From contig NZ_JAATOM010000004.1 in NCBI RefSeq assembly GCF_019207085.1, positions 248,001 through 312,000 on the forward strand: a stretch of DNA of 64,000 nucleotides, given 5' to 3'. The notes beneath the pieces were generated by a model, which saw only the letters and a list, made by a program, of their open reading frames with translations, ran no database searches and was not told the origin of the DNA. The stretch is from Variovorax sp. dw_308. Lineage in GTDB: Bacteria > Pseudomonadota > Gammaproteobacteria > Burkholderiales > Burkholderiaceae_C. This document shows, piece by piece, positions 5,413-18,374 of this stretch. Every line of letters starts with the position of its first letter. Position 1 is the first letter of the stretch. The translations under genes and the position numbers were made by a program.

Positions 5413-5472
5413 TCAGGACTGCGATTGTGATTGCGACTGCGATCGTGACTGTGACTGCGACTGCGACTGAGA
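5413..5472. repeat. Hexanucleotide repeat encoding a Ser-Gln tail
   Basis: About nine imperfect copies of a six-base unit (variants of GACTGC / GATTGC on the plus strand) run through the 3' end of the transglutaminase gene and give an alternating Ser-Gln tail interrupted by one Arg. Copy number is likely to vary between strains through replication slippage. Because it sits at the very end of the gene, gain or loss of units would change only the tail. Confidence 0.8.
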
Positions 5473-6417
5473 CAGTCCCGCATTGCGCACCGCTTCCTCC
5501 GCCAGCATGCGTGCTTCGTCGCCGAGTTCGTCGATCGGCATCACCGTCACGCCCACCTTGAGCGTGTGGCGCGAGCCGCCATGCAGCACGCCGCGCATCG
5601 GCGACACGTCGGAATAGTCACGGCCGATGGCCAGCGTCACGTAGTCCTCGCCCGGCTGCCGGCCATTGGTCGGATCGAAGTCGGCCCAGTCGCCGGCCCC
5701 GTCGATGCCCGGCAGGTAGACGGACACCCATGCATGCGAGGCATCGGCGCCCACCAGGCGGGGCTTGCCGGGCGGCGGTTGGGTCAGCAGGTAGCCGCTG
5801 ACATAGCGCGCGGGCAGTCCCATGGTGCGGAAGCATCCGATCATGATGTGGGCGAAGTCCTGGCAGACGCCGCCCCGCTGGGCCAGCGCCTCGACCGCGG
5901 GCGTGTTGACTTCGGTGCTTTCGGGGTCGTAGTCGAACTCGCTGTAGATGCGCAGGCACAGGTCCATCGCGACATCGAAGGTCGCCCGGCCCGGAGCGAA
6001 ACTGGGCCGCGCGTAGGACGCGAAGTCATCGTGGCGCGGCACGTAGGGCGAGGGATAGGCGAAGTCCGAGGCCGCGTCGTAGGGCGCGCCCTTGCGGTAT
6101 TGAAAACGCTCGCGCACCTGCTCCCAGGGCAGTGTGCGCGCTGCGGCGGGACCGAGCACCGGGTTCGAGGTTTCCACCACGCTTTCGGCCGTGACCACCA
6201 GCTTCTGATGCGTCGTGTCCAGCGCGAAGAACGCGCGAGCGTTGCCGTAGATGTCGGGCGACGCGCTGCGCTGGGCGGGCTCCGGCGTGATCGTCAATTG
6301 GTGGCTCACCAGGCGTTGCGATGCGGTGACAAGCGGCTTCAGGTGCGCCAGGTGCTGCGCGGTTTCCACCGGGGGCGTGTAGTCGTAGCGGGTTTCGTGG
6401 GTGACGTGGAGCAGCAT
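5413..6417 (-). CDS. Transglutaminase-like cysteine peptidase with N-terminal bacterial transglutaminase domain
   Basis: The 334-residue protein starts with the bacterial transglutaminase N-terminal domain (LLHVTHETRYDYTPPV) followed by a papain-like transglutaminase core. The catalytic triad is visible as Cys185 (GGVCQDFAH), His228 (DASHAW) and Asp248 (DFDPTNG). No signal peptide is seen, so it should act in the cytoplasm. These proteins accompany circularly permuted ATP-grasp and alpha-E proteins, which are encoded at 6898-9588 on the same strand. The last 19 or so residues are a Ser-Gln repeat encoded by a six-base tandem repeat, unlike the rest of the protein and probably a slippage product. 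Confidence 0.87.
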   Translation of the reverse strand: MLLHVTHETRYDYTPPVETAQHLAHLKPLVTASQRLVSHQLTITPEPAQRSASPDIYGNARAFFALDTTHQKLVVTAESVVETSNPVLGPAAARTLPWEQVRERFQYRKGAPYDAASDFAYPSPYVPRHDDFASYARPSFAPGRATFDVAMDLCLRIYSEFDYDPESTEVNTPAVEALAQRGGVCQDFAHIMIGCFRTMGLPARYVSGYLLTQPPPGKPRLVGADASHAWVSVYLPGIDGAGDWADFDPTNGRQPGEDYVTLAIGRDYSDVSPMRGVLHGGSRHTLKVGVTVMPIDELGDEARMLAEEAVRNAGLSQSQSQSQSRSQSQSQSQS

Positions 6418-6604
6418 GGCCGGATTTTGCGCTCATGACGGGCGAAGTTGCCGGTTGGATGAGGACCGCCTGAAAGCTGGACTTCGCACGCATCAAATTG
6501 CCCGAGTCGCTCGCCGGAGGCCGAGACAGCCTGAGACAATCGCCCGGGCAATGGAACCGGGCAAGCGTCACGCCCAAGACATAAGGACAGGGAGAGAACA
6601 ACAT

Positions 6605-6763
6605 ATGAATCAACCGAGGCTGCCGGGCGGGATCGACCGGGCTGCGATCGCAAGGATCGTCGCAATCGATCATCCCCACCTGCTCGACGATGAGCTGGCG
6701 GGCTGGCTCAAGGGCAGAGCGACGGGGGAAGAACCATGCCGAAAAGCAAGTTGTTCCTCCTGA
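6605..6763 (+). CDS. Small hypothetical protein, 52 aa
   Basis: A short frame begins at ATG 6605 behind a good Shine-Dalgarno run (AGGGAGAG at about 6588-6595). The product begins MNQPRLPGGIDRAAIARIVA and contains an acidic amphipathic stretch (DHPHLLDDELAGWLKG). It overlaps the next small frame by 28 bases. No family is recognised. The rest of this gap has no other plus-strand candidate. Support is the ribosome site, the codon bias and the paired arrangement, so the call is tentative. Confidence 0.4.
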   Translation: MNQPRLPGGIDRAAIARIVAIDHPHLLDDELAGWLKGRATGEEPCRKASCSS

Positions 6764-6897
6764 TCGCCGCCGGGATGAGCGCACCCGCGTGGTTCGTCGA
6801 TGTCAGCGCCTTGCCGTTCACGGCGCAGTTCATCTGGTTTGGCGGCGTCATCCTCTGCGCACTGTTCGGCCTCGCCTTCCGGGCGAGCGGGAAGTAA
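6736..6897 (+). CDS. Small membrane protein, 53 aa
   Basis: The frame from ATG 6736 to TAA 6897 has GC-rich third positions like its neighbours and a purine-rich ribosome site (GGGGGAAGAA) just upstream. The product starts MPKSKLFLLIAAGMSAPAWF. It has two hydrophobic stretches, about residues 5-20 and 28-48, so it is probably a small membrane protein with two helices. It ends one base before the convergent stop of the ATP-grasp/alpha-E gene. Function unknown. Confidence 0.5.
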   Translation: MPKSKLFLLIAAGMSAPAWFVDVSALPFTAQFIWFGGVILCALFGLAFRASGK

Positions 6898-9588
6898 TCA
6901 GGCCCCCACGGAGCGCAACGATTCCGAAGTCAGCGTGAAGTAGCGCGTGCCGATCGCGTCGGACACGTGGTAGGCGGCTGATTCGCAGCTTTCGAAGAGG
7001 TGCACCAGCGCCGGGTATTGCGTGTCGGGGCCTGGCTCGCAGAGCTTTTCGAGCGTCCACGTGGACGGGTCGGGCAGCTCGTAGGAGAGGGCGGTCAGCT
7101 TGCCTGGCGCGCTGCCCGCGAGCCGTGCGATGCGCCCGCGCAGCGTCTGCGTCACCCAGGCGAGCGAGCGTGGGTTGTCCCCGTCGAGCACCAGCAGGTC
7201 CACCATGGTCGCGACATCGCGGCGTTGCTGGTAGCGCGCGTGGAAGGTGATCGTGCTGTCGAACAGCGCAACCATCGCTTCGAATCCCGCGACCTCATGC
7301 ACCGCGCCGTTCTGGAAGCCGGCGGCCAGCGCGCTTGAAAGGAAGGCCAGCCGTTCGATGTGCCGCCCGATCGACAGCAGCCGCCATGCATCGTCGCGCG
7401 TCATGCGGTCGGTCTGCGCGCCGGTCATCGCGGCCAGCGCGGCGCTGGCGCCTTCGAGCGAACGCAGCGCGGCGCCGATCGCATAGCTGCTTTCGCCCGC
7501 TTCGCCGGCCTGCTCGGCGGTGCGGCGCAGGAACTCCGCTTCGGCCCGCACGATCTGGGTCCAATGGTCCTGCGACAGGCGCTCGCGCACGGCTGCCGCC
7601 GCCTCGCGCACGCAGCGCAGGCTGAAGCCGACGCTACCGCCGCGTTCAACGTCGCCCAGTTCGGCAATCAACACGCGCTCGAACACGCGCCGTGATTTCG
7701 TCCCGCCGGGCACTTCGCGCGGCACCAGGGCATTGCGCAAGGCGAGGCGATGCAGCCAGCCGAGCAACTGGCGCGAAGACTGGTCTTCGCCACCGAGCAA
7801 GTCGAGCGTGAGCCGCGCCAGGCGCACGGCGTTTTCGGCGCGCTCGGTGTAGCGGCCGAGCCAGAACATGTTCTCCGCGGCACGGCTGGTCACCGGCGCG
7901 CGATGGCGGGCCAGGGAGGCGGGCGTGGACTGCGGATGCAGCAGCGAGGTGCGGTCGACGTGGCCGTTGGTCTGCACCCAGACGTCGGCGCTGCTGCCGC
8001 CGCGCTGCATCGACGCGATCTGCGCGTCCGCGCCGGCCAGCCGCGCCAGCCCGCCCGGCAGCACGCGCCAGGACTGCGCGCCATCGCTCACCGCGAACAC
8101 GCGCAGCAGGACCGCGCGCGGTGCGATGTGGCCGGGACCGAAGTCCTGCGCCCAGGTGGGCATCTGCGACAGCGGCAGGTAGCTTTGCACGGTGTGCGCA
8201 TCGCCGCCGCGCACGATCCGGCCCGCCCATTCGTCGAGTTCGCGACGGCTCAAGCGGCTGCCGAGCACCGGCTCGAAGGTGTCGTGCGAAGCCGAGCCGG
8301 TGTAGGTCGGCTTGATGGCGCAGTCGCCGAGCTGCGGCAGCACTGCTTCCAGGGCGGCACGCTCGCCGCACCACCAGGTCGGCAACGCAGGCAACTGCAG
8401 CCGTTCGCCGATCAGGTGGCGCGCCAGCGCGGGGAGAAAGCCGAGCAACGCGGGCGATTCGAGGAAGGCGGAGCCCGGCATGTTGGCCACCAGCACGTTG
8501 CCGGCGCGAATGGCCTGCAGCAGGCCGGGTACGCCGAGCGTGGAATCGGGCTTGAGTTCGAGCGGATCGAGGTACTGGTCGTCCAGCCGTTTGATCAGGC
8601 CGTGCACCGGGCGCAGGCCCTGCAAGGTCTTGAGGTAGAGGCGCTGGTCGCGCACGGTGAGGTCATTGCCCTCGACCAGCGTGATGCCGAGGTAGCGCGC
8701 CAGGTAGGCATGCTCGAAATAGGTTTCGTTGTAGGGGCCGGGCGTCAGCAGCGCGATGTGGGGCGGGGCGCCGGCCGGGCAGATCTTCTGCAGGCCTTCC
8801 ATCAGTGCGCTGTAGGTGGCGGCCAGGCGCTGCACGTGGAGCGCCTCGAAGGCCTGCGGGAACTGGCGCGAGATGGCCAGGCGGTTCTCCAGCAGGTAGC
8901 CGAGGCCCGAAGGCGCCTGCGTGCGTTGCGAGACGACCCACCAGTTGCCGTCCGGGCCGCGCGCCAGGTCGAAGCCGGCGATGTGCAGCCAGGTGTCGCC
9001 CGGCGGCTTGACGCCGTGCATCGCCCGCAGGTAGCCGGGATGGCCACGCACCAGCGCGGCCGGCAGCAGGCCCTCGGCCAGCAGCTGCTGCGGGCCATAG
9101 ACATCGGCCAGCACGCGGTCGAGCACCCGCACGCGCTGCTGCACGCCGGCCTCTATCTGGGCCCAGCTCTCGGGCGAGATGATCAAGGGGAACAGGTCCA
9201 GCGACCACGGGCGTTGCGGGCCGTCGCCGTCGGCATAGACGTTGTAGGTGACGCCGTTGTCGCGGATCTGGCGCGCCAGGCTGACGGCGCGGCGCGGCAG
9301 GTCGCCGAAGCCGCCCGAGCCGAGCTCGTCGAAGAACTGCGACCAGCCGGACGTCAACGGTGGGCGCGTCGGCGAGGGCGACGCTTCGGGCTGCGGCACG
9401 GGCGGCGCCTGCGCGGCGTCGTGCAAGGGTGCGACCGGTTGCGAAGGCAGGCTGTTGCGCGGTGCGTTCAGCGGCGTTGCCGCACCCCTCAGTTCGTCGA
9501 AATGGCCGGCGTGCGCGGGCGGTGCGAGCGCCGAGGCCAAGGCGGCGGGCGCCTCCAGCGAGGCGTTGCCGAAGAGGGAGTCGTTCAT
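6898..9588 (-). CDS. Fusion of a circularly permuted ATP-grasp domain with an alpha-E domain
   Basis: The 896-residue protein has a Pro/Ala-rich N-terminus (1-80), a circularly permuted type-2 ATP-grasp region (about 80-560) and an alpha-E domain (about 570-896, starting AAENMFWLGRYTERAENA). The ATG at 9588 is preferred over the GTG at 9597. ATP-grasp proteins of this kind are predicted to make amide/peptide bonds, and alpha-E domains are all-helical partners of unknown role. Compared with the stand-alone copy at 15897-17399, key residues are changed: the metal/ATP-binding Glu-Asp-Asn is Ser-Gln-Arg (220-222), the Lys-Glu-x-x-Gly-x-Gly-Gly loop is lost, and the Asp of HIDLRPF is Leu. The ATP-grasp half may therefore be inactive. 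Confidence 0.85.
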   Translation of the reverse strand: MNDSLFGNASLEAPAALASALAPPAHAGHFDELRGAATPLNAPRNSLPSQPVAPLHDAAQAPPVPQPEASPSPTRPPLTSGWSQFFDELGSGGFGDLPRRAVSLARQIRDNGVTYNVYADGDGPQRPWSLDLFPLIISPESWAQIEAGVQQRVRVLDRVLADVYGPQQLLAEGLLPAALVRGHPGYLRAMHGVKPPGDTWLHIAGFDLARGPDGNWWVVSQRTQAPSGLGYLLENRLAISRQFPQAFEALHVQRLAATYSALMEGLQKICPAGAPPHIALLTPGPYNETYFEHAYLARYLGITLVEGNDLTVRDQRLYLKTLQGLRPVHGLIKRLDDQYLDPLELKPDSTLGVPGLLQAIRAGNVLVANMPGSAFLESPALLGFLPALARHLIGERLQLPALPTWWCGERAALEAVLPQLGDCAIKPTYTGSASHDTFEPVLGSRLSRRELDEWAGRIVRGGDAHTVQSYLPLSQMPTWAQDFGPGHIAPRAVLLRVFAVSDGAQSWRVLPGGLARLAGADAQIASMQRGGSSADVWVQTNGHVDRTSLLHPQSTPASLARHRAPVTSRAAENMFWLGRYTERAENAVRLARLTLDLLGGEDQSSRQLLGWLHRLALRNALVPREVPGGTKSRRVFERVLIAELGDVERGGSVGFSLRCVREAAAAVRERLSQDHWTQIVRAEAEFLRRTAEQAGEAGESSYAIGAALRSLEGASAALAAMTGAQTDRMTRDDAWRLLSIGRHIERLAFLSSALAAGFQNGAVHEVAGFEAMVALFDSTITFHARYQQRRDVATMVDLLVLDGDNPRSLAWVTQTLRGRIARLAGSAPGKLTALSYELPDPSTWTLEKLCEPGPDTQYPALVHLFESCESAAYHVSDAIGTRYFTLTSESLRSVGA

Positions 9589-9660: not shown

Positions 9661-12600
9661 CTAACGTCGCAGGTCGAGCGTGAACGGGAACTCGCGGCTG
9701 CCCGCCAGCTCGATGGTCGCCGGCGGCGTGCTCAGCAGGCCGGGCGTGTGGCCCATACGTGCAAAGCGCGAATGACGGCGGCTCTCGGCTTCGTAGGCGT
9801 TGACCGGGAAGGTATCGTAGTTGCGGCCACCCGGGTGCGCGACGAAATACTGGCAACCGCCCAGCGAACGCTTCATCCAGGTATCGACGATGTCGAAGGT
9901 CAGCGGCGCGTGCGCGGGGATGCTCGGGTGCAGCGCAGACGGCGGGTTCCAGGCCTTGTAGCGCACGCCGGCCACGAACTCGCCCACGGTGCCGGTCGGC
10001 TGCAGCGGCAGCACCTTGCCATTGACGGTGATCACGTGTCGGCTTTCGTTGAGACCGGTGACGCGCACCTCGATGCGCTCCAGCGACGAGTCGACGTAGC
10101 GCACGGTGCCGCCGGCCGAGCCTTCCTCGCCCATCACATGCCATGGTTCCAGCGCGTTGCGCAGCGAAAGCTCCACACCCATCGCCTGCACCTGGCCCAC
10201 GAGCGGGAAGCGGAACTCGAAGTGCGGCGCGAACCAGTCGACATCGAAGGCGAAGCCGGCCTGCTTCATCTCGGCGATGACATCGTCGAAGTCCATCTTG
10301 ACGAAGGTCGGCAGCAGGAAGCGGTCATGCAGCTCGGTGCCCCAGCGCGTCATCGGCGCCTTGCAGGGCGCGTCCCAGAAGCGGGCTACCAGCGCGCGGA
10401 TCAGCAACTGCTGCGCGATGCTCATGCGCGCGTGGGGTGGCATTTCGAAGGCACGCAGCTCCAGCAGTCCGAGGCGGCCGGTACTCGAATCCGGCGAGTA
10501 GAGCTTGTCGATGCAGAACTCGCTGCGGTGCGTGTTGCCCGACACGTCGATCAGGATGTTGCGCAGTGTGCGGTCGACCAGCCAGGCCGGCATGTTCTGT
10601 CCGTAGATCTCGCGGTTCTTCGCGATTTCCTTGAGCGCGATCTCCAGTTCGTAGACCTGGTCGTTGCGGGCCTCGTCCACGCGCGGCGCCTGGCTCGTCG
10701 GGCCGATGAACATGCCCGAGAACAGGTACGACAGCGACGGATGGTTGTGCCAGTACAGCAGCAGGCTGGCGAGCAGTTCGGGCCGGCGCAGGAAGGGGCT
10801 GTCCGCCGGCGTGGCGCCGCCCATCACGAAGTGGTTGCCGCCGCCGGTGCCGGTGTGGCGCCCGTCGGTCATGAACTTCTCGGCCGAAAGGCGCGTCTCG
10901 AAGGCCGCGTTGTAGAGGAACTCGGTGTGGTCGACCAGTTCCTTCCAGTTGTTGGCCGGGTGGATGTTGACCTCGATCACGCCGGGGTCGGGCGTGACGG
11001 CCAGCACCTTCAGGCGTGGATCGCGCGGCGGCGGATAGCCCTCCATGACGATCTTCACGCCAAGCTGCGTGGCCGTGGCCTCGACGGCCGCGACCAGGTC
11101 GAGGTAGTCCTCCAGGCGGGCCAGCGGCGGCATGAAGATGTAGAGCACGCCGGAGGCAGCGCCGACCTTTTCCGCAGCCGGGCCGTTGGCGCGGCGCGGG
11201 TCGCGAACTTCCACGCACAGTGCGGTGCGCGTGACCCAGTGGGCCGACTCGCCTCGACGTGGCTGGCGGGTTCCGTCCGCGATGCTGGCATCGAAGGGCG
11301 AGGGCTTGCCGGAGCCCTGCATCTTCAGTGCCGTGCCCGCTGCGGGCGGCGTGCCGAAGGCATAAGGAACGGACGCCAGGTCGCCGGTTCCACTGCCGGG
11401 CGTGGTGGCCGGTGCATAGGCCGTGCCGCGGCCTGCCCCATTGGCGGATGCGTATGCCGTGCCGAGGCCTGCGCCGCTCGCGGGTGCGGTCGCGGTGGCG
11501 GCATAGCGTGCCTGGTACTGGGCCGCCGTCGGCAATGCGGCGCGGGGTGCGGTCGGGTCGCGGTCGACCAGGTAGGGGTAGTCGCCCTTGCTCGCCCACG
11601 GTTGCGAATCGAGCGGCAGGCGGTAGCCCATCGGCGAGTCGCCCGGAATGAGGAACAGGCGGTCGTCGCGCAGGAACCAGGGGCCGGTCTTCCAGCCGGG
11701 GCCTTCGAGCGGCGGTGCATCGCTTTCCGCGCTGGCTGGTTCGATCGGCAGCATGTAGCCGATGACCGCGTCGAGCTTCTGCGTGAACACGCGGCGCAGG
11801 CGCACGCGTTCCATCTCGTCTTCGAGCTTGGACTCGAACACGTCGACGTTGACCGGCAGGCGACGTTCGCGCCAGAGGTAGTAGTAGACGTCTTCGTAGC
11901 CGGGCTGGATGAAGCGCTCGGTCAGGCCCAGCTTGTGGGCCAGCACGGTGGTGAAGCGGCGTGCGTCTTCGCTGGTGTAGTGCGTGGGCACGCGCTCGTC
12001 GGCGAACAGTTCGGGGTCGTGCCACAGGCGCTGGCCGTCGGTGCGCCAGAAGATCGACAGGGCCCAGCGCGGCAATTGCTCGCCCGGGTACCACTTGCCC
12101 TGGCCGAAGTGCAGGAAGCCGCCGTCGCCGTATTCGGCGCGCAGCTTGTGCACGAGTTCGGTGGCATAGCCGCGCTTCGTGGGGCCGAGCGCGTCGGTGT
12201 TCCACTCGGGCGCGTCGCGGTCGCTGGTGGCCACGTAGGTGGGCTCGCCGCCCATGGTCAGGCGCACGTCGCCGTCGACCAGGCGCTTGTCGACCGCCTC
12301 GCCGAGCTTGAGCACATCGGCCCATTGCTCGTCGGTGTAGGGCAGGGTGACGCGCGGCGATTCGTAGATGCGCGTGACCTTCATCTCGTGGCCGAAGTCG
12401 ACCTCGGCATCGTCGACCACGCCTTCGATGGGCGCGGCGCTCGATGGTGTGGGCGTGCAGGCGAGAGGGATGTGGCCTTCGCCGGCCAGCAGGCCGGAGG
12501 TGGCGTCGAGGCCGATCCAGCCGGCGCCCGGCAGGAATACTTCGCACCAGGCGTGCAGATCGGTGAAGTCGACGGTGGTGCCGCTGGGGCCGTCGAGCGC

Positions 12601-13239
12601 CTTCACGTCCGGCGTGAGCTGGATCAGGTAGCCGGAGACGAAGCGCGCGGCCAGGCCGCAATGGCGCAACAGTTGCACCAGCAGCCAGCCGGAGTCGCGG
12701 CAGGAGCCGCTGGCATTGGTCAGCGTTTCTTCCGGCGTCTGCACGCCGGGCTCCATGCGGATCAGGTAGTTGATGTCCTTCTGGACCTGCTGGTTGATGC
12801 CGACCAGGAAGTCGATGGTGCGCTGTTCCTTGCGGTCGACCTTGGCGAGGTAGGCCTTGAACAGCGGCGTGGGTTCGTCCTTGACGAGGTAAGGCGCGAG
12901 CTCTTCTGCCTGCGATTCCGTGTACTTGAACGGGAAGTTTTCCGCTTGCGGCTCCAGAAAGAAGTCGAACGGGTTGTAGACCGCCATCTCGACGACGAGG
13001 TCGACGGTAACCTTGAACTCGCGCGTCTTTTCCGGGAAGACCAGCCGTGCCTGGTAGTTGGCGAACGGGTCCTGCATCCAGTTGACGAAATGATCGGCTG
13101 GCTCGACTTGCAGCGAATACGAGATGACGTTGCTGCGGCAATGCGGCGCGGGCCGCAGTCGCACAACCTGCGGCCCCAATTGCACGGGGCGGTCGTATTT
13201 GTAGTGGGTGACGTGGTGGAGCGCGGCGTGAATGGACAT
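9661..13239 (-). CDS. DUF2126 protein with N-terminal transglutaminase domain
   Basis: The 1192-residue protein begins MSIHAALHHVTHYKYDRPVQ (start at 13239; the frame is open a little further up, but this ATG fits the family). It opens with a bacterial transglutaminase N-terminal domain and a transglutaminase core with Cys180 (SGSCRDSGW), His229 (DLHAWCEV) and Asp245 (GLDATSG). Residues from about 300 on form the DUF2126 region, which shows glutamine-synthetase/amidoligase-like features in predicted families. A low-complexity Ala/Gly/Thr linker lies near residue 600. It is the first gene of a minus-strand run with the ATP-grasp/alpha-E fusion and the small transglutaminase, which suggests one pathway. 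Substrate unknown. Confidence 0.87.
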   Translation of the reverse strand: MSIHAALHHVTHYKYDRPVQLGPQVVRLRPAPHCRSNVISYSLQVEPADHFVNWMQDPFANYQARLVFPEKTREFKVTVDLVVEMAVYNPFDFFLEPQAENFPFKYTESQAEELAPYLVKDEPTPLFKAYLAKVDRKEQRTIDFLVGINQQVQKDINYLIRMEPGVQTPEETLTNASGSCRDSGWLLVQLLRHCGLAARFVSGYLIQLTPDVKALDGPSGTTVDFTDLHAWCEVFLPGAGWIGLDATSGLLAGEGHIPLACTPTPSSAAPIEGVVDDAEVDFGHEMKVTRIYESPRVTLPYTDEQWADVLKLGEAVDKRLVDGDVRLTMGGEPTYVATSDRDAPEWNTDALGPTKRGYATELVHKLRAEYGDGGFLHFGQGKWYPGEQLPRWALSIFWRTDGQRLWHDPELFADERVPTHYTSEDARRFTTVLAHKLGLTERFIQPGYEDVYYYLWRERRLPVNVDVFESKLEDEMERVRLRRVFTQKLDAVIGYMLPIEPASAESDAPPLEGPGWKTGPWFLRDDRLFLIPGDSPMGYRLPLDSQPWASKGDYPYLVDRDPTAPRAALPTAAQYQARYAATATAPASGAGLGTAYASANGAGRGTAYAPATTPGSGTGDLASVPYAFGTPPAAGTALKMQGSGKPSPFDASIADGTRQPRRGESAHWVTRTALCVEVRDPRRANGPAAEKVGAASGVLYIFMPPLARLEDYLDLVAAVEATATQLGVKIVMEGYPPPRDPRLKVLAVTPDPGVIEVNIHPANNWKELVDHTEFLYNAAFETRLSAEKFMTDGRHTGTGGGNHFVMGGATPADSPFLRRPELLASLLLYWHNHPSLSYLFSGMFIGPTSQAPRVDEARNDQVYELEIALKEIAKNREIYGQNMPAWLVDRTLRNILIDVSGNTHRSEFCIDKLYSPDSSTGRLGLLELRAFEMPPHARMSIAQQLLIRALVARFWDAPCKAPMTRWGTELHDRFLLPTFVKMDFDDVIAEMKQAGFAFDVDWFAPHFEFRFPLVGQVQAMGVELSLRNALEPWHVMGEEGSAGGTVRYVDSSLERIEVRVTGLNESRHVITVNGKVLPLQPTGTVGEFVAGVRYKAWNPPSALHPSIPAHAPLTFDIVDTWMKRSLGGCQYFVAHPGGRNYDTFPVNAYEAESRRHSRFARMGHTPGLLSTPPATIELAGSREFPFTLDLRR

Positions 13240-13356
13240 GTTTTGAAGTGTCGTGAAGGGGCGCCAGTGGCGCACGCATACTAGCCCACAAGCAAGCAAT
13301 TAACGCGCCAAAGCGCGAAGGGACGGAGTGGGAAACGTGGGGCGGAAGAGACGTTG

Positions 13357-15819
13357 ATGGAGGCCGTCGGGGAGGAACAAGACACCGGCCAGCGCCGCCC
13401 GTGGGCCTTTGCCGCGATGGCCGGGTCGGTGCTGGGCGCCGCGCTGCAACTGCAGCAGCGGGAACTGTGGGCGCTCGCGGTTTATGCGGCGATGGCATTG
13501 GCAGCGTTGTTTGCCTTGTGGGTCTTGCAACGCCTGCGCCATCGGGGTGGCCGTGCGACCGGGCTGCTCGCGCTGCTCTTGGGGGCCGCCCTGGCCTTTG
13601 GCCTGGCCGGCACGCGAGCCGTGCTGTATGCCGATGGGGCGCTGGATCCGGACATCGAGGGGCGCGACGTGGAAGTGGTCGGGGTCGTCGCGCAGATGCC
13701 GCAGCGGGGCGAGGGCGCCTTGCGTTTTCGGCTCGATGTCGAATCGGCACGCTGGGTGGGCAGGGAGGCGCCTCCGACCGGGCCTGCTGGATGGCCCACG
13801 AAACTTGCGCTCGGCTGGTACGCCGAGAACACGGGCCTGTGGGGCCGGCCCGTGCGAGACGAGAACCAGGCCCCGGCGCCCTCGATGCCGGCTGAACTGC
13901 ACGCGGGCGAACGCTGGCGCATGACGGTTCGACTGCGTGCACCGCACGGCAACCTCAACCCGCACGGCTTCGACTACGAGTTGCTGATGTGGGAGCAGGG
14001 CGTTCGCGCCGCCGGCTATGTGCGTGCCGGCAGCAACGACGCGCCGCCCATGCGCCTGGGCATGACGTGGCAACACCCGGTAGAACGCGCCCGCGAGTGG
14101 GTGCGCGACGCGGTCTTCGAGCGGGTGGCCGACAAGCGATCGGCCGGCGTCATCGCCGCGCTCATCACCGGAGACCAGAGCGCGATCGATCGCGCCGACT
14201 GGGACATCTTCCGCGCGACGGGCGTGGCGCACTTGATGAGCATCTCGGGACTCCACATCACCATGTTCGCCTGGCTGGCCGCGGCGCTGGTGGGAGCGCT
14301 GTGGCGGCGCAGCACGCGCTGCATGCTGCTATGGCCCGCGCCGCAGGTTGCGCTGGTCGGCGGCGTGCTGCTGGCCGCGCTGTATGCGCTGTTCAGCGGC
14401 TGGGGCGTGCCGTCGCAACGCACGGTGAGCATGCTGGCGACGCTGGCGCTGCTGCGCCTCACCGGCCGGCGGTGGCCGGCGCCGAACCTGTGGCTCTGCA
14501 CCTGCGCGGTGGTGGTCGCGCTCGACCCCTGGGCCTTGACGCAGGCCGGCTTCTGGCTCAGCTTCGTCGCGGTGGGGGTGCTGTTCGCGACCGATGCGGG
14601 TGAGTCGCCGGCCGGCAGGACGAGCTTCGTGGCGCGCCTGCTGCGCATGCTGCGCGAGCAATGGGTGGTCACGCTCGCGCTGGCGCCGCTGACCTTGCTG
14701 CTGTTCCAGCAAGTCTCGCTGGTCGGGCTGCTGGCCAACACCCTCGCGATCCCATGGGTGACGCTGGTGGTGACGCCGCTGGCGATGCTGGGCGTGGCCA
14801 TCCCGCATTTGTGGGATGTCGCCGCCTGGACCGTGCAGGGCCTGGGCGACTTCCTGCAATGGCTGGCAGCTTGGCCGCTGGCCACCGTTTCCACCGGGGC
14901 GCCGCCGGCATGGCTGGCGCTCTGCGGGGTTGCGGGCGGGGTGCTGTTGGCCATGCAGCTGCCGCTGGCGATGCGTGCGCTCGGACTGCCGCTGCTGTTG
15001 TCGGCCTTGCTCTGGCAGCCGGGACGTCCCGGGCTTGGCGAGTTCGACCTGTTGGCGGCGGACATCGGCCAGGGCAACGCCGTGCTGGTGCGCACCGCGC
15101 ACCATGCCCTGCTGTACGACACCGGCCCCCGCTACAGCCTGGAGAGCGACGCCGGCCAGCGGGTGCTGGTGCCCTTGCTGCGGGCCCTGGACGTGCGCCT
15201 CGACACGGTGGTGCTGAGCCATCGCGATGCCGATCACACAGGCGGTGCACCGGCCGTGCTGGCCACGCAGCCGCAGGCGGCGCTGCGCAGTTCGATCGAG
15301 GAAATGCACCCCCTGCAGGAATTGCGTCGTTCGGACAAGTGCGTGGCAGGCCAGCATTGGGAATGGGACGGCGTCCGCTTCGAGTTCCTGCATCCGGTGG
15401 CTGCCGACTATGAAAGCGCCACCAAGCCGAACGCGATCTCGTGCGTGCTGCGCATCGACAACGGGCGCGCCAGCGCGCTGCTGGCCGGCGACATCGAGCG
15501 CGACCAGGAAAGCGCCCTGGTGAAGCGCGATCCCGGCTTGCGTGCCGACGTGCTGCTGGCGCCGCACCACGGCAGCAAGACCTCGTCGAGCGCGTTGCTG
15601 CTCGATACGCTGAAACCGCGCATCGCACTCGTGCAGGCCGGCTACCGCAACCGCTTCGGCCATCCCGCCGACGAGGTGACGAAGCGCTACGAGGCGCGCG
15701 GCATCGCGGTGGTCGATTCGCCACATTGCGGCGCGATCGCCTGGCAAAGCACGTCGCCCGCGGCCTGGGAGTGCGAGCGCGCGGTCGCCCGGCGCTATTG
15801 GCGGCACGTGCCGCGGTGA
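13357..15819 (+). CDS. comEC: ComEC/Rec2-type DNA internalisation protein
   Basis: The 820-residue protein has an N-terminal soluble domain, a ComEC/Rec2 membrane channel domain (signature GVAHLMSISGLHITMFAWLA around residue 290, and many hydrophobic segments) and a C-terminal metallo-beta-lactamase domain. The latter reads LLAADIGQGNAVLV, SHRDADHTGG and LLAPHHGSKTSS, so the zinc-binding HxDxDH motif is present. ComEC forms the inner-membrane channel for single-stranded DNA during natural transformation. The ATG at 13357 is used; the TTG just before it is in frame. It diverges from the DUF2126 gene. No other competence gene is nearby. Confidence 0.9.
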   Translation: MEAVGEEQDTGQRRPWAFAAMAGSVLGAALQLQQRELWALAVYAAMALAALFALWVLQRLRHRGGRATGLLALLLGAALAFGLAGTRAVLYADGALDPDIEGRDVEVVGVVAQMPQRGEGALRFRLDVESARWVGREAPPTGPAGWPTKLALGWYAENTGLWGRPVRDENQAPAPSMPAELHAGERWRMTVRLRAPHGNLNPHGFDYELLMWEQGVRAAGYVRAGSNDAPPMRLGMTWQHPVERAREWVRDAVFERVADKRSAGVIAALITGDQSAIDRADWDIFRATGVAHLMSISGLHITMFAWLAAALVGALWRRSTRCMLLWPAPQVALVGGVLLAALYALFSGWGVPSQRTVSMLATLALLRLTGRRWPAPNLWLCTCAVVVALDPWALTQAGFWLSFVAVGVLFATDAGESPAGRTSFVARLLRMLREQWVVTLALAPLTLLLFQQVSLVGLLANTLAIPWVTLVVTPLAMLGVAIPHLWDVAAWTVQGLGDFLQWLAAWPLATVSTGAPPAWLALCGVAGGVLLAMQLPLAMRALGLPLLLSALLWQPGRPGLGEFDLLAADIGQGNAVLVRTAHHALLYDTGPRYSLESDAGQRVLVPLLRALDVRLDTVVLSHRDADHTGGAPAVLATQPQAALRSSIEEMHPLQELRRSDKCVAGQHWEWDGVRFEFLHPVAADYESATKPNAISCVLRIDNGRASALLAGDIERDQESALVKRDPGLRADVLLAPHHGSKTSSSALLLDTLKPRIALVQAGYRNRFGHPADEVTKRYEARGIAVVDSPHCGAIAWQSTSPAAWECERAVARRYWRHVPR

Positions 15820-15896: not shown

Positions 15897-17399
15897 ATGC
15901 ACAAATTTGACGAGATGTACGAGTCGCAGCCTTACGCAGGCGCTGCGATCCGAAGCCACTACCAGCGCTACGACCAATGGCTGGCGAAGCAACCGGGCGA
16001 GGTGATGCGCTCGCGGCGCGAAGAGGCGGAGATGATTTTTCGCCGGGTCGGCATCACCTTCGCGGTGTATGGCGCCAAGGACGAGGATGGCGCCGGCACC
16101 GAGCGGCTGATCCCGTTCGACCTGCTGCCGCGCATCATCCCGGCCGACGAATGGGCCGAGATGGAAAAGGGGCTGGTGCAGCGCGTCAATGCGCTCAACC
16201 GCTTCATCCACGACGTCTACCACGACCAGGAAATCATCAAGGCCGGCATCATCCCGGCCGAGCAGATCAAGGACAACGCGCAATTCCGCCCCGAGATGAT
16301 GGGCGTGCATGTGCCGCACGACGTCTACTCGAGCATCGCCGGTATCGACATCGTGCGGGCCCCGGACGCCAACGGCAGCGGCGAGTACTACGTGCTCGAA
16401 GACAACCTGCGCGTACCCAGCGGCGTGAGCTACATGCTCGAGAACCGCAAGATGATGATGCGGCTCTTCCCCGAGCTGTTCAACCAGAACCGCGTCGCGC
16501 CTGTCGCGCACTACCCCGACCTGCTGCTGGAAACCCTGCGCGCCATCGCCCCGCCGGCCACGCCCGAGCCCACGGTGGTGGTGCTCACGCCCGGCATGTA
16601 CAACAGCGCCTACTTCGAGCATGCCTTCCTGGCCCAGCAGATGGGCGTGGAACTGGTCGAGGGACAGGACCTGTTCGTCAAGGACGACTTCGTCTACATG
16701 CGGACCACGCGGGGGCCGAGGCGGGTCGACGTGATCTACCGCCGCGTCGACGACGACTTCCTCGACCCCGAGGTGTTCCGCCCCACGTCCACGCTCGGTT
16801 GCGCCGGCCTGATGCGCGCCTACCGCGCCGGCAACGTCGCCATCTCCAATGCCGTGGGCACCGGCGTGGCCGACGACAAGTCGATCTATCCCTACGTGCC
16901 GAAGATGATCGAGTTCTACCTGAACGAAAAGCCGATCCTCAAGAACGTGCCCACCTACATGTGCCGCAACAAGGACGAACTGGAGTACGTCATCTCGAAC
17001 ATGAAGGACCTGGTCGTGAAGGAAGTGCACGGCGCTGGCGGTTACGGCATGCTGATCGGCCCGGCCGCGACGCAGGCCGAGATAGAGGACTTCAAGAAGG
17101 CCGTGCTGGCCAAGCCCGACGGCTACATCGCGCAGCCCACGCTGAGCCTGTCGAGTTCGCCCACTTTCGTGGACGCCGGCATCGCGCCGCGCCACATCGA
17201 CCTGCGGCCCTTCGTGCTGTCGGGCAAGGAAGTGCAGATGGTGCCGGGCGGCCTCACCCGGGTGGCGCTGAAGGAAGGCTCGCTGGTGGTCAACTCCTCG
17301 CAGGGCGGCGGCACCAAGGACACCTGGGTGCTCGAAGCGGACCGGCGCCCGGCCGCAGCGCCCGCGGCGCCTTCGCAATCGCAAAAGCAATCGGCATAA
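15897..17399 (+). CDS. Circularly permuted type-2 ATP-grasp protein (stand-alone, catalytically intact)
   Basis: The 500-residue protein begins MHKFDEMYESQPYAGAAIRS, behind GAAGGAGA. The predicted catalytic residues are kept: Glu168-Asp169-Asn170 in LEDNLRVPSG, a Gly-rich lysine loop at 375-383 (KEVHGAGGY), Asp435-Arg437 in HIDLRPF, and QGGGTKDTWVL at about 469-479. The family is predicted to form amide bonds (peptide tagging or small peptides), but no substrate is established. The alpha-E gene follows after 21 bases, so the two form an operon. The last residues (SQSQKQSA) recall the Ser-Gln tail of the transglutaminase at 5413. No signal peptide. Confidence 0.9.
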   Translation: MHKFDEMYESQPYAGAAIRSHYQRYDQWLAKQPGEVMRSRREEAEMIFRRVGITFAVYGAKDEDGAGTERLIPFDLLPRIIPADEWAEMEKGLVQRVNALNRFIHDVYHDQEIIKAGIIPAEQIKDNAQFRPEMMGVHVPHDVYSSIAGIDIVRAPDANGSGEYYVLEDNLRVPSGVSYMLENRKMMMRLFPELFNQNRVAPVAHYPDLLLETLRAIAPPATPEPTVVVLTPGMYNSAYFEHAFLAQQMGVELVEGQDLFVKDDFVYMRTTRGPRRVDVIYRRVDDDFLDPEVFRPTSTLGCAGLMRAYRAGNVAISNAVGTGVADDKSIYPYVPKMIEFYLNEKPILKNVPTYMCRNKDELEYVISNMKDLVVKEVHGAGGYGMLIGPAATQAEIEDFKKAVLAKPDGYIAQPTLSLSSSPTFVDAGIAPRHIDLRPFVLSGKEVQMVPGGLTRVALKEGSLVVNSSQGGGTKDTWVLEADRRPAAAPAAPSQSQKQSA

Positions 17400-17420: not shown

Positions 17421-18374
17421 ATGCTGTCTCGCACCGCCGATCACCTCTACTGGATGTCGCGCTACACCGAGCGCGCGGAGAACACCGCGCGCATGCTCGA
17501 TGTCAACTACCAGACCTCGCTGCTGCCGCAGTCGGCCGAAGTCGCGCAGCACGGTTGGCAAGGCCTGCTCTCCATCAGCGAACTGCTGCCTTCGTATCGC
17601 AAGACGCACGAGCAGATCGTTCCGCAACAGGTCATGGAGTTCATGGTCAAGGACGAGGACAACCCGTCGTCGATCCTGTCCTGCCTGCGCGCCGCCCGCG
17701 AGAACGCGCGCGCCGTGCGCGGTGCGCTGACCACCGAAGCCTGGGAAACGCAGAACACGACCTGGCTGGAAGTGAACCGCATGCTGCGCGCGGGCGATTT
17801 CGAACGCGACCCGGGCCAGTTCTTCGAATGGGTGAAGTTCCGCTCGCACTTGTCGCGCGGCGTCACGCTCGGCACGATGCTGCAGGACGAGGCCTTCTAC
17901 TTCTCGCGTCTGGGCACCTTCCTGGAGCGGGCCGACAACACGGCGCGCCTGGTCGACGTGAAGTTCCATGCAATGAACAGCGAGTTCTTCGGCCAGGGCG
18001 CCAGCGACCAGGAGTACGACTTCTATCACTGGAGCGCGATCCTGCGCAGCGTCTCGGCCTTCGAGGTGTACCGCAAGGTGTACCGTGACGTGATCAAGCC
18101 GGAGCGCGTGGCCGAGTTGCTGATCCTGCGCGCCGACATGCCCCGTTCATTGCATGCGAGCCTGGCGGAGGTGGTGGCCAACTTGGCGAAGGTGGCGAAC
18201 GACCAGAGTGCGGAGACGCAGCGGCGTGCGGGCAAGCTGCTGGCCGATTTGCAGTACGCGCGGGTGGACGAGATCCTGGCGACGGGGTTGCATGCGTACC
18301 TGACGCAGTTCCTGGATCGGGTAAATGAGCTGGGGTGGCGGATCAGCCAGGATTTCCTGGTGCCGACGCACTGA
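17421..18374 (+). CDS. Alpha-E domain-containing protein
   Basis: The 317-residue all-helical protein starts MLSRTADHLYWMSRYTERAE, the hallmark of the alpha-E (DUF403) family. That family is always found next to, or fused with, circularly permuted ATP-grasp proteins and transglutaminases. It follows the ATP-grasp gene after 21 bases and is closed by a strong terminator. Its biochemical role is unknown. A paralogue forms the C-terminal third of the 6898-9588 fusion (FWLGRYTERAENA). No membrane segment or signal peptide is seen. Confidence 0.9.
   Translation: MLSRTADHLYWMSRYTERAENTARMLDVNYQTSLLPQSAEVAQHGWQGLLSISELLPSYRKTHEQIVPQQVMEFMVKDEDNPSSILSCLRAARENARAVRGALTTEAWETQNTTWLEVNRMLRAGDFERDPGQFFEWVKFRSHLSRGVTLGTMLQDEAFYFSRLGTFLERADNTARLVDVKFHAMNSEFFGQGASDQEYDFYHWSAILRSVSAFEVYRKVYRDVIKPERVAELLILRADMPRSLHASLAEVVANLAKVANDQSAETQRRAGKLLADLQYARVDEILATGLHAYLTQFLDRVNELGWRISQDFLVPTH

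Follow-up and report, generated by a model that had tools for sequence, protein, structure and literature searches.

In a 64,000-nucleotide stretch of the Variovorax sp. dw_308 genome (contig NZ_JAATOM010000004.1, positions 248,001 to 312,000; the whole stretch is called the window below), two genes encode proteins with a circularly permuted ATP-grasp domain. In one of them, P0001, an N-terminal linker precedes this domain and an Alpha-E domain follows it; the other, P0002, is a stand-alone protein about 6.3 kb away in the window. A reading made from the letters and open reading frames (the sequence-only reading) had noted that the ATP-grasp domain of P0001 appears to have lost its catalytic residues, and had proposed a pseudo-enzyme preserved as a scaffold or regulator. 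Here we find these residues replaced across the family of fused proteins, and the loss of canonical Mg-ATP-dependent ligation in P0001 is well supported. The features of the two genes and of the Alpha-E gene next to P0002 are as follows.

6898–9588, minus strand: P0001, fused pseudo-ATP-grasp / Alpha-E protein, 896 amino acids (translation and Pfam).
7969–9351, minus strand: circularly permuted ATP-grasp domain, P0001 residues ~80–540 (Pfam; predicted fold against 3n6x, Z 36.5).
8923–8931, minus strand: Ser220-Gln221-Arg222 at the Glu-Asp-Asn site (BLASTP to P0002; family counts).
8896–8943, minus strand: P0001 residues 216–231 (WWVVSQRTQAPSGLGY), the frozen former metal site (ratio of nonsynonymous to synonymous substitution rates, dN/dS; conservation windows).
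8266–8313, minus strand: P0001 residues 426–441, remnant of the glycine-rich loop with low conservation (BLASTP; dN/dS; conservation windows).
8365–8376, minus strand: Trp405-Trp406-Cys407-Gly408, with fused-specific W406 and G408.
8095–8115, minus strand: A492–F498 (AVLLRVF), with R496 invariant and the His and Asp of HIDLRPF gone.
6937–7890, minus strand: Alpha-E domain, P0001 residues 567–884 (Pfam), with both ER motifs present.
15897–17399, plus strand: P0002, stand-alone CP_ATPgrasp protein with Glu-Asp-Asn intact (Pfam; BLASTP).
16398–16406, plus strand: E168-D169-N170 of P0002 (BLASTP).
17019–17048, plus strand: K375–G384 (KEVHGAGGYG), the glycine-rich loop of P0002 (sequence).
17421–18374, plus strand: stand-alone Alpha-E protein (Pfam).

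P0001 matches CP_ATPgrasp_2 (E-value 4.2e-142), CP_ATPgrasp_1 (3.5e-98) and Alpha-E (9e-58), and it passes the curated cut-offs of PF14403 (474 bits against 32), PF04174 (329.1 against 23.1) and the Alpha-E family PF04168 (196.7 against 20.8). The circularly permuted ATP-grasp and Alpha-E families are the only ones in Pfam that it matches, and none of the eight proteins scanned matched an NCBIfam model; such proteins therefore invite annotation as enzymes. Across the genome, CP_ATPgrasp_2 has two matches, P0001 and P0002, and no third.

The translation of the minus strand reproduces the coordinates and residues reported earlier, and BLASTP, which aligns P0001 with P0002 at 35% identity over 441 columns, pairs the same residues that had been paired by eye. 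Glu-Asp-Asn of P0002 (168–170) stands opposite Ser-Gln-Arg of P0001 (220–222), leaving S-Q-R in place of the Glu-x-Asn metal site. KPTYTGSASHD falls opposite KEVHGAGGYG and the GGYG of the glycine-rich ATP loop is absent, although the first Lys of the loop (K426), counted as replaced in the sequence-only reading, is retained. Similarly, RAVLLRVF is paired with RHIDLRPF, as proposed, but its Arg (R496) is kept.

The predicted model of P0001 (predicted local distance difference test score, pLDDT, 83.5; predicted template modelling score, pTM, 0.64) has an ATP-grasp fold and superposes on 3n6x, a circularly permuted ATP-grasp protein of Methylobacillus flagellatus, with a Z score of 36.5 and a root-mean-square deviation of 3.2 over 444 residues. 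3n6x is the top fold match of P0001 and its sole sequence match in the PDB (9.7e-80). It was used in place of the AlphaFold model of P0002, which was poor (pLDDT 54.1, 25 similar sequences) and was set aside. 3n6x carries VLEDN and GGYG, whereas P0001 carries VVSQR and no glycine loop. The P0001 model shares its ATP-grasp arrangement with eukaryotic glutathione synthetases (Z ~22), YgiC/YjfC (~21.7) and E. coli GspS (~19), and those are ligases. In yeast glutathione synthetase, Asp130, Glu146, Glu386 and Glu442 hold two magnesium ions, directly or via water (PMC2845819). From order and spacing (Asp151, Glu168) we infer that Glu168 of P0002 is the equivalent of yeast Glu146; since sequence profiles did not align with GspS or YgiC, Glu168 stays a putative rather than a known magnesium ligand. 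At the corresponding site of P0001 the outer Asp (D207) is kept, Ser replaces Glu, Arg replaces Asn and the glycine-rich lid is absent.

Relatives were gathered from 61 close genomes (48 matching), 232 genomes of the class (74 matching) and 299 of the phylum (172 matching), a sampling aimed at Pseudomonadota. The loci named individually are the best 80 of 592 relatives and are therefore biased to close relatives; the closest among them are Variovorax and other Comamonadaceae. Residues were counted in 176 fused-family domains and 121 full-length stand-alone domains from the fetched loci, with the window's own P0001/P0002 pair outside these counts and with loci L001–L003 (copies of the window), domains below 100 bits and six stand-alone fragments dropped beforehand. 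The 176 fused domains are redundant, and 110 remain below 80% identity. Each domain was classed as fused or stand-alone by its higher-scoring query, residues not being used, and the tree described below is a partly independent check on this assignment.

Glu at position 168 (P0002 numbering) occurs in 121/121 stand-alone domains and in 2/176 fused ones. Position 170 is Asn in 121/121 stand-alone domains and in 0/176 fused domains, where it is Arg (157), His (14), Ser (2) or, once each, Gln, Leu and Pro. These counts indicate that Ser-Gln-Arg is more than a chance or private mutation. Asp169, present in 121/121 stand-alone domains, is Gln in 109/176 fused domains and Asp in 60/176. The suggested check, whether SQR is conserved in the fused family, is borne out for this genus and its near relatives; other branches carry ADR, SDR, GDR, ADH and more, so that the loss of D169 is not universal. 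None of the fused-family domains examined contains the triad. The two fused domains with Glu168, L209:6435-8975 and L229:6393-8918, read LEDR and LEDH, with Arg or His at the Asn position despite the Glu, and are possible intermediates. Position 172 changes from Arg (121/121 stand-alone) to Gln (163/176 fused; Gln224 in P0001), and the three glycine positions of the loop hold Gly in 18, 25 and 12 of the 176 fused domains. Elsewhere the fused family retains Lys (126/176) or Arg (19/176) at the K426 position, the outer acidic residue, D207 in P0001 and D151 in P0002, as Asp (160/176) or Glu (14/176), R496, the Arg of HIDLRPF, in 176/176, Arg516 in 170/176 and Asp535 in 175/176.

The surrounding motifs had been described as kept. 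Among 95 positions invariant in the stand-alone domains, the fused family holds 41 at frequencies of at least 90% and has lost 27 (kept in at most 10%), so that the surroundings are less intact than described. The fused family also has residues of its own at frequencies of at least 90%, namely Gln224, Gly230, Leu376, Glu377, Trp406 and Gly408; W406 is found in 176/177 and G408 in 175/177. More than a loss has occurred at the former metal site: a conserved R-T-Q-A-P-S-G signature has taken its place, which agrees with a re-used pocket no less than with an inert scaffold. The ER motifs of the fused Alpha-E domain are conserved (first motif, E 169/175 and R 175/175; second, E 169/175 and R 173/175). 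Past the second ER, Asp172, Arg176 and Asp179 (numbered from the ATG of the stand-alone protein) are mostly lost, indicating that both domains of the fused protein have diverged.

Selection was estimated as the median pairwise dN/dS over 30 fused genes of the genus; the short segments comprise few codons. The ratio is 0.159 for the ATP-grasp domain, 0.199 for Alpha-E and 0.314 for the N-terminal linker. Residues 203–240, around the former metal site, give 0.029, and residues 424–445, around the former glycine loop, give 0.493. Stand-alone genes give 0.091 for the whole domain and 0.083 around the metal site; the HIDLRPF stretch and the stand-alone glycine loop, each under 20 codons, have no value. 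Conservation among the 110 non-redundant fused domains follows the same lines: residues 216–231 are among the most conserved (36/416 windows equal or higher), residues 426–441 are among the least conserved (395/416 equal or higher, approximately the lowest 5%) and residues 490–498 are average (189/418 equal or higher). In the stand-alone proteins all three corresponding regions lie above the median. Thus the old lid drifts, whereas the old metal site, in its altered form, is kept constant. Catalytic residues are lost in the orthologues and the gene is under selection, as in a pseudoenzyme.

A FastTree tree without an outgroup was built from 110 fused and 53 stand-alone domains and one independent fusion (164 in all, below 80% identity). 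A single split with support 1.0 and a branch length of 0.90 sets 110/110 fused domains apart. The independent fusion, L049:10696-13374, joins a stand-alone-type domain with intact Glu-Asp-Asn to Alpha-E; in that one case fusion has occurred without loss, a natural control. A very divergent fused-family copy lies beside it (L049, 7318–9927). Two metagenome records titled Akkermansia and Bradyrhizobium (L130, L090) hold Burkholderiales-like copies, 53% and 63% to P0001, and are possibly mis-binned contigs.

P0001 is flanked on its own strand by two genes with transglutaminase domains.

9661–13242, minus strand: P0003, transglutaminase core and DUF2126 putative amidoligase, directly upstream of P0001, with C181, H230 and D246 conserved (the start given is one codon ahead of the ATG).
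5413–6417, minus strand: transglutaminase-like protein downstream of P0001, with C185, H228 and D248 conserved.

This arrangement recurs. The transglutaminase is next on the same strand in 132/137 fused loci with enough sequence, and DUF2126 is directly upstream of the fused gene in 102 of 129 loci, at another place in the locus in 9, and missing from it in 18. Cys181/His230/Asp246 are conserved in at least 97% of 115 DUF2126 proteins and Cys185/His228/Asp248 in at least 93% of 167 downstream transglutaminases; we take these to be the transglutaminase catalytic triads. Counted by genome, DUF2126 is found in 87/98 genomes with a fused protein and in 9/201 others (Fisher p = 9e-52, only indicative because the genomes are related). 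Four loci from the fused-protein genomes without a DUF2126 match (L239–L242) have an adjoining transglutaminase and no DUF2126. The 98 comprise the window's own genome and 97 more, chosen by eye among the matches listed, so divergent members may be missed. A P0002-like relative occurs in each of the 97 genomes searched, the window's own not counted (47/47 and 50/50, E ≤ 1e-148), and the paralogue residues, read in the fetched loci, are intact in 121/121 full-length domains. Conversely, a fused match is absent in up to 74/172 matched genomes, among the matches listed. Several genomes have the fused and stand-alone ATP-grasp genes on separate contigs or at a great distance from each other.

In the window, a comEC-type competence gene (13375–15819) separates the fused cluster from the stand-alone pair. 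About 480 bases (6418–6897) separate the P0001 gene from the downstream transglutaminase; in many relatives the stop-to-stop frames touch or overlap. A 6/18-base tandem repeat at 5417–5473 gives that transglutaminase a C-terminal Ser-Gln tail, and P0002 ends in SQSQKQSA. Outside the window, the genome has two proteasome-family matches and no further one. By eye these are presumably HslV (L238) and the betaproteobacterial homologue BPH (BPH-like; L237) rather than Anbu. The latter, at L237:8834-9613, is on a contig different from that of both ATP-grasp genes.

The family-wide loss of the metal and ATP-phosphate motifs, purifying selection and the intact-type paralogue in 97/97 genomes support the pseudo-enzyme part of the sequence-only reading; its scaffold or regulator part remains a proposal. 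With moderate confidence, we propose P0001 as a member of an old pseudo-ATP-grasp family, widespread in the sampled Pseudomonadota, that serves its transglutaminase partners as a non-ligase subunit. P0001 is probably a partner of the neighbouring enzymes and not itself a ligase. A stand-alone ATP-grasp and Alpha-E gene pair may have been duplicated; one copy would then have undergone fusion of its two genes, replacement of the inner metal ligands (Glu, Asn) and loss of the glycine-rich lid. The product would no longer perform canonical Mg-ATP-dependent ligation. Instead, the rebuilt pocket of P0001, together with Alpha-E, may bind either the partner enzymes or a substrate, which could be a peptide or a protein. 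As a scaffold, P0001 may present this substrate to the transglutaminase-fold enzymes encoded next to it and, in genomes that have one, to the DUF2126 putative amidoligase. ATP chemistry would fall to the stand-alone enzyme and perhaps also to DUF2126.

Several observations weigh against this proposal. Midpoint rooting places the root within the fused set, where long-branched proteins lie (4 against 160 tips), so that a derived origin of the fused form does not follow from the tree alone; that the triad was lost rather than gained is argued from its likeness to the metal ligands of other ATP-grasp enzymes. The losses are not significantly confined to catalytic positions (3/5 pre-named positions against 27/95, p = 0.14), the other two pre-named positions, G381 and G382, lying inside the gapped, poorly alignable loop; on these alignments the fused family has diverged broadly, beyond the catalytic positions. 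The retained Lys426, Arg496, Arg516, Asp535 and Asp207 could still provide a binding site for nucleotide or for an acidic peptide. DUF2126 has no match in 11/98 fused genomes and is thus not always the substitute ligase, which weakens the candidate role of DUF2126 as an obligate one. Finally, the interaction of P0001 with its partners is a putative one, and in Yersinia no specific interaction between Anbu and other Anbu-operon proteins was detected (PMC6376114).

The retained and newly fixed residues raise the question whether P0001 is still an enzyme. Its pocket could have been rebuilt, with Arg222 and Gln224 taking on new functions, for example to use a nucleotide without the usual metal pair or to transfer acyl or peptidyl groups independently of ATP. 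The frozen former metal site (dN/dS 0.029; 36/416 windows), its conserved replacement (Arg 157/176, Gln 163/176), the nearly invariant, fused-specific W406, G408, G230 and E377, and the kept R496, R516, D535 and D207 all suit such an enzyme. The former lid is unconserved, however (395/416 windows), and no fused-specific acidic residue is fixed near the lost ligands in the sequence. We know of no active enzyme of the ATP-grasp fold that lacks the glycine-rich loop, and this also counts against a rebuilt enzyme, which we consider rather doubtful. A related idea, put forward tentatively and as slightly less doubtful, is that in a very large ATP-grasp family the metal-ATP site was swapped for a strongly conserved Arg/Gln pocket and Trp-Trp-Cys-Gly; the family would carry out a different, possibly ATP-independent step, or recognize acidic or phosphorylated peptides, as the substrate-selecting core of a protein-modifying transglutaminase/amidoligase machine.

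P0001 might also bind the stand-alone enzyme or its Alpha-E protein and control its activity in a mixed complex of live and dead subunits. The pattern of occurrence (a stand-alone relative in 97/97 fused genomes; no fused match in up to 74/172, among the matches listed) and the ~6.3 kb between the two ATP-grasp genes in the window agree with such control. It is nevertheless unlikely, given the genomes in which the two genes are on different contigs or far apart, and given that the gene found most regularly beside the fused one encodes the transglutaminase (132/137). That the gene is decaying and functionless is highly improbable: the former glycine loop and the linker evolve fast (dN/dS 0.49 and 0.31), but both domains have dN/dS of 0.16–0.20, long open frames extend across the phylum sample, the gene order recurs and the group has many speciations. 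Decay or sequencing error was accordingly rejected on selection and distribution.

Should the family to which we assign P0001 have no ligase activity left, this widespread peptide-modification system of uncharacterized function would have to be modelled differently, with the stand-alone enzyme and DUF2126 as the places to look for ATP chemistry and the fused protein as the binding subunit. The occurrence of a live and a dead copy within one genome makes the proposal directly testable.

The architecture and the system are already known, the domains as Pfam families. A survey by Iyer et al. 2009 (Mol BioSyst) reportedly covers both architecture and system. The portions of the literature available to us contain no statement that the fused family lacks catalytic residues, although an earlier mention in Iyer et al. 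2009 is possible. Anbu-type operons encode a stand-alone CP_ATPgrasp protein and an Alpha-E protein, the same two domain families, with a transglutaminase-like partner as in the P0001 system, and phosphate release from ATP was measured for the ATP-grasp protein of the Yersinia bercovieri operon (PMC6376114). That protein resembles CP_ATPgrasp at the level of the domain family and is a putative member of the stand-alone branch. The stand-alone proteins studied here keep Glu-Asp-Asn and the glycine loop (121/121) and have the two domains as separate genes, whereas the fused family mostly occurs with DUF2126. A second parallel is TTLL12, a diverged TTL-like ligase without critical residues, which has motifs resembling those of ATP-grasp and for which functions other than catalysis have been proposed (PMC3520985). 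TTLL12 differs in belonging to another, eukaryotic family, in having a SET-like domain where P0001 has Alpha-E, and in having no transglutaminase operon.

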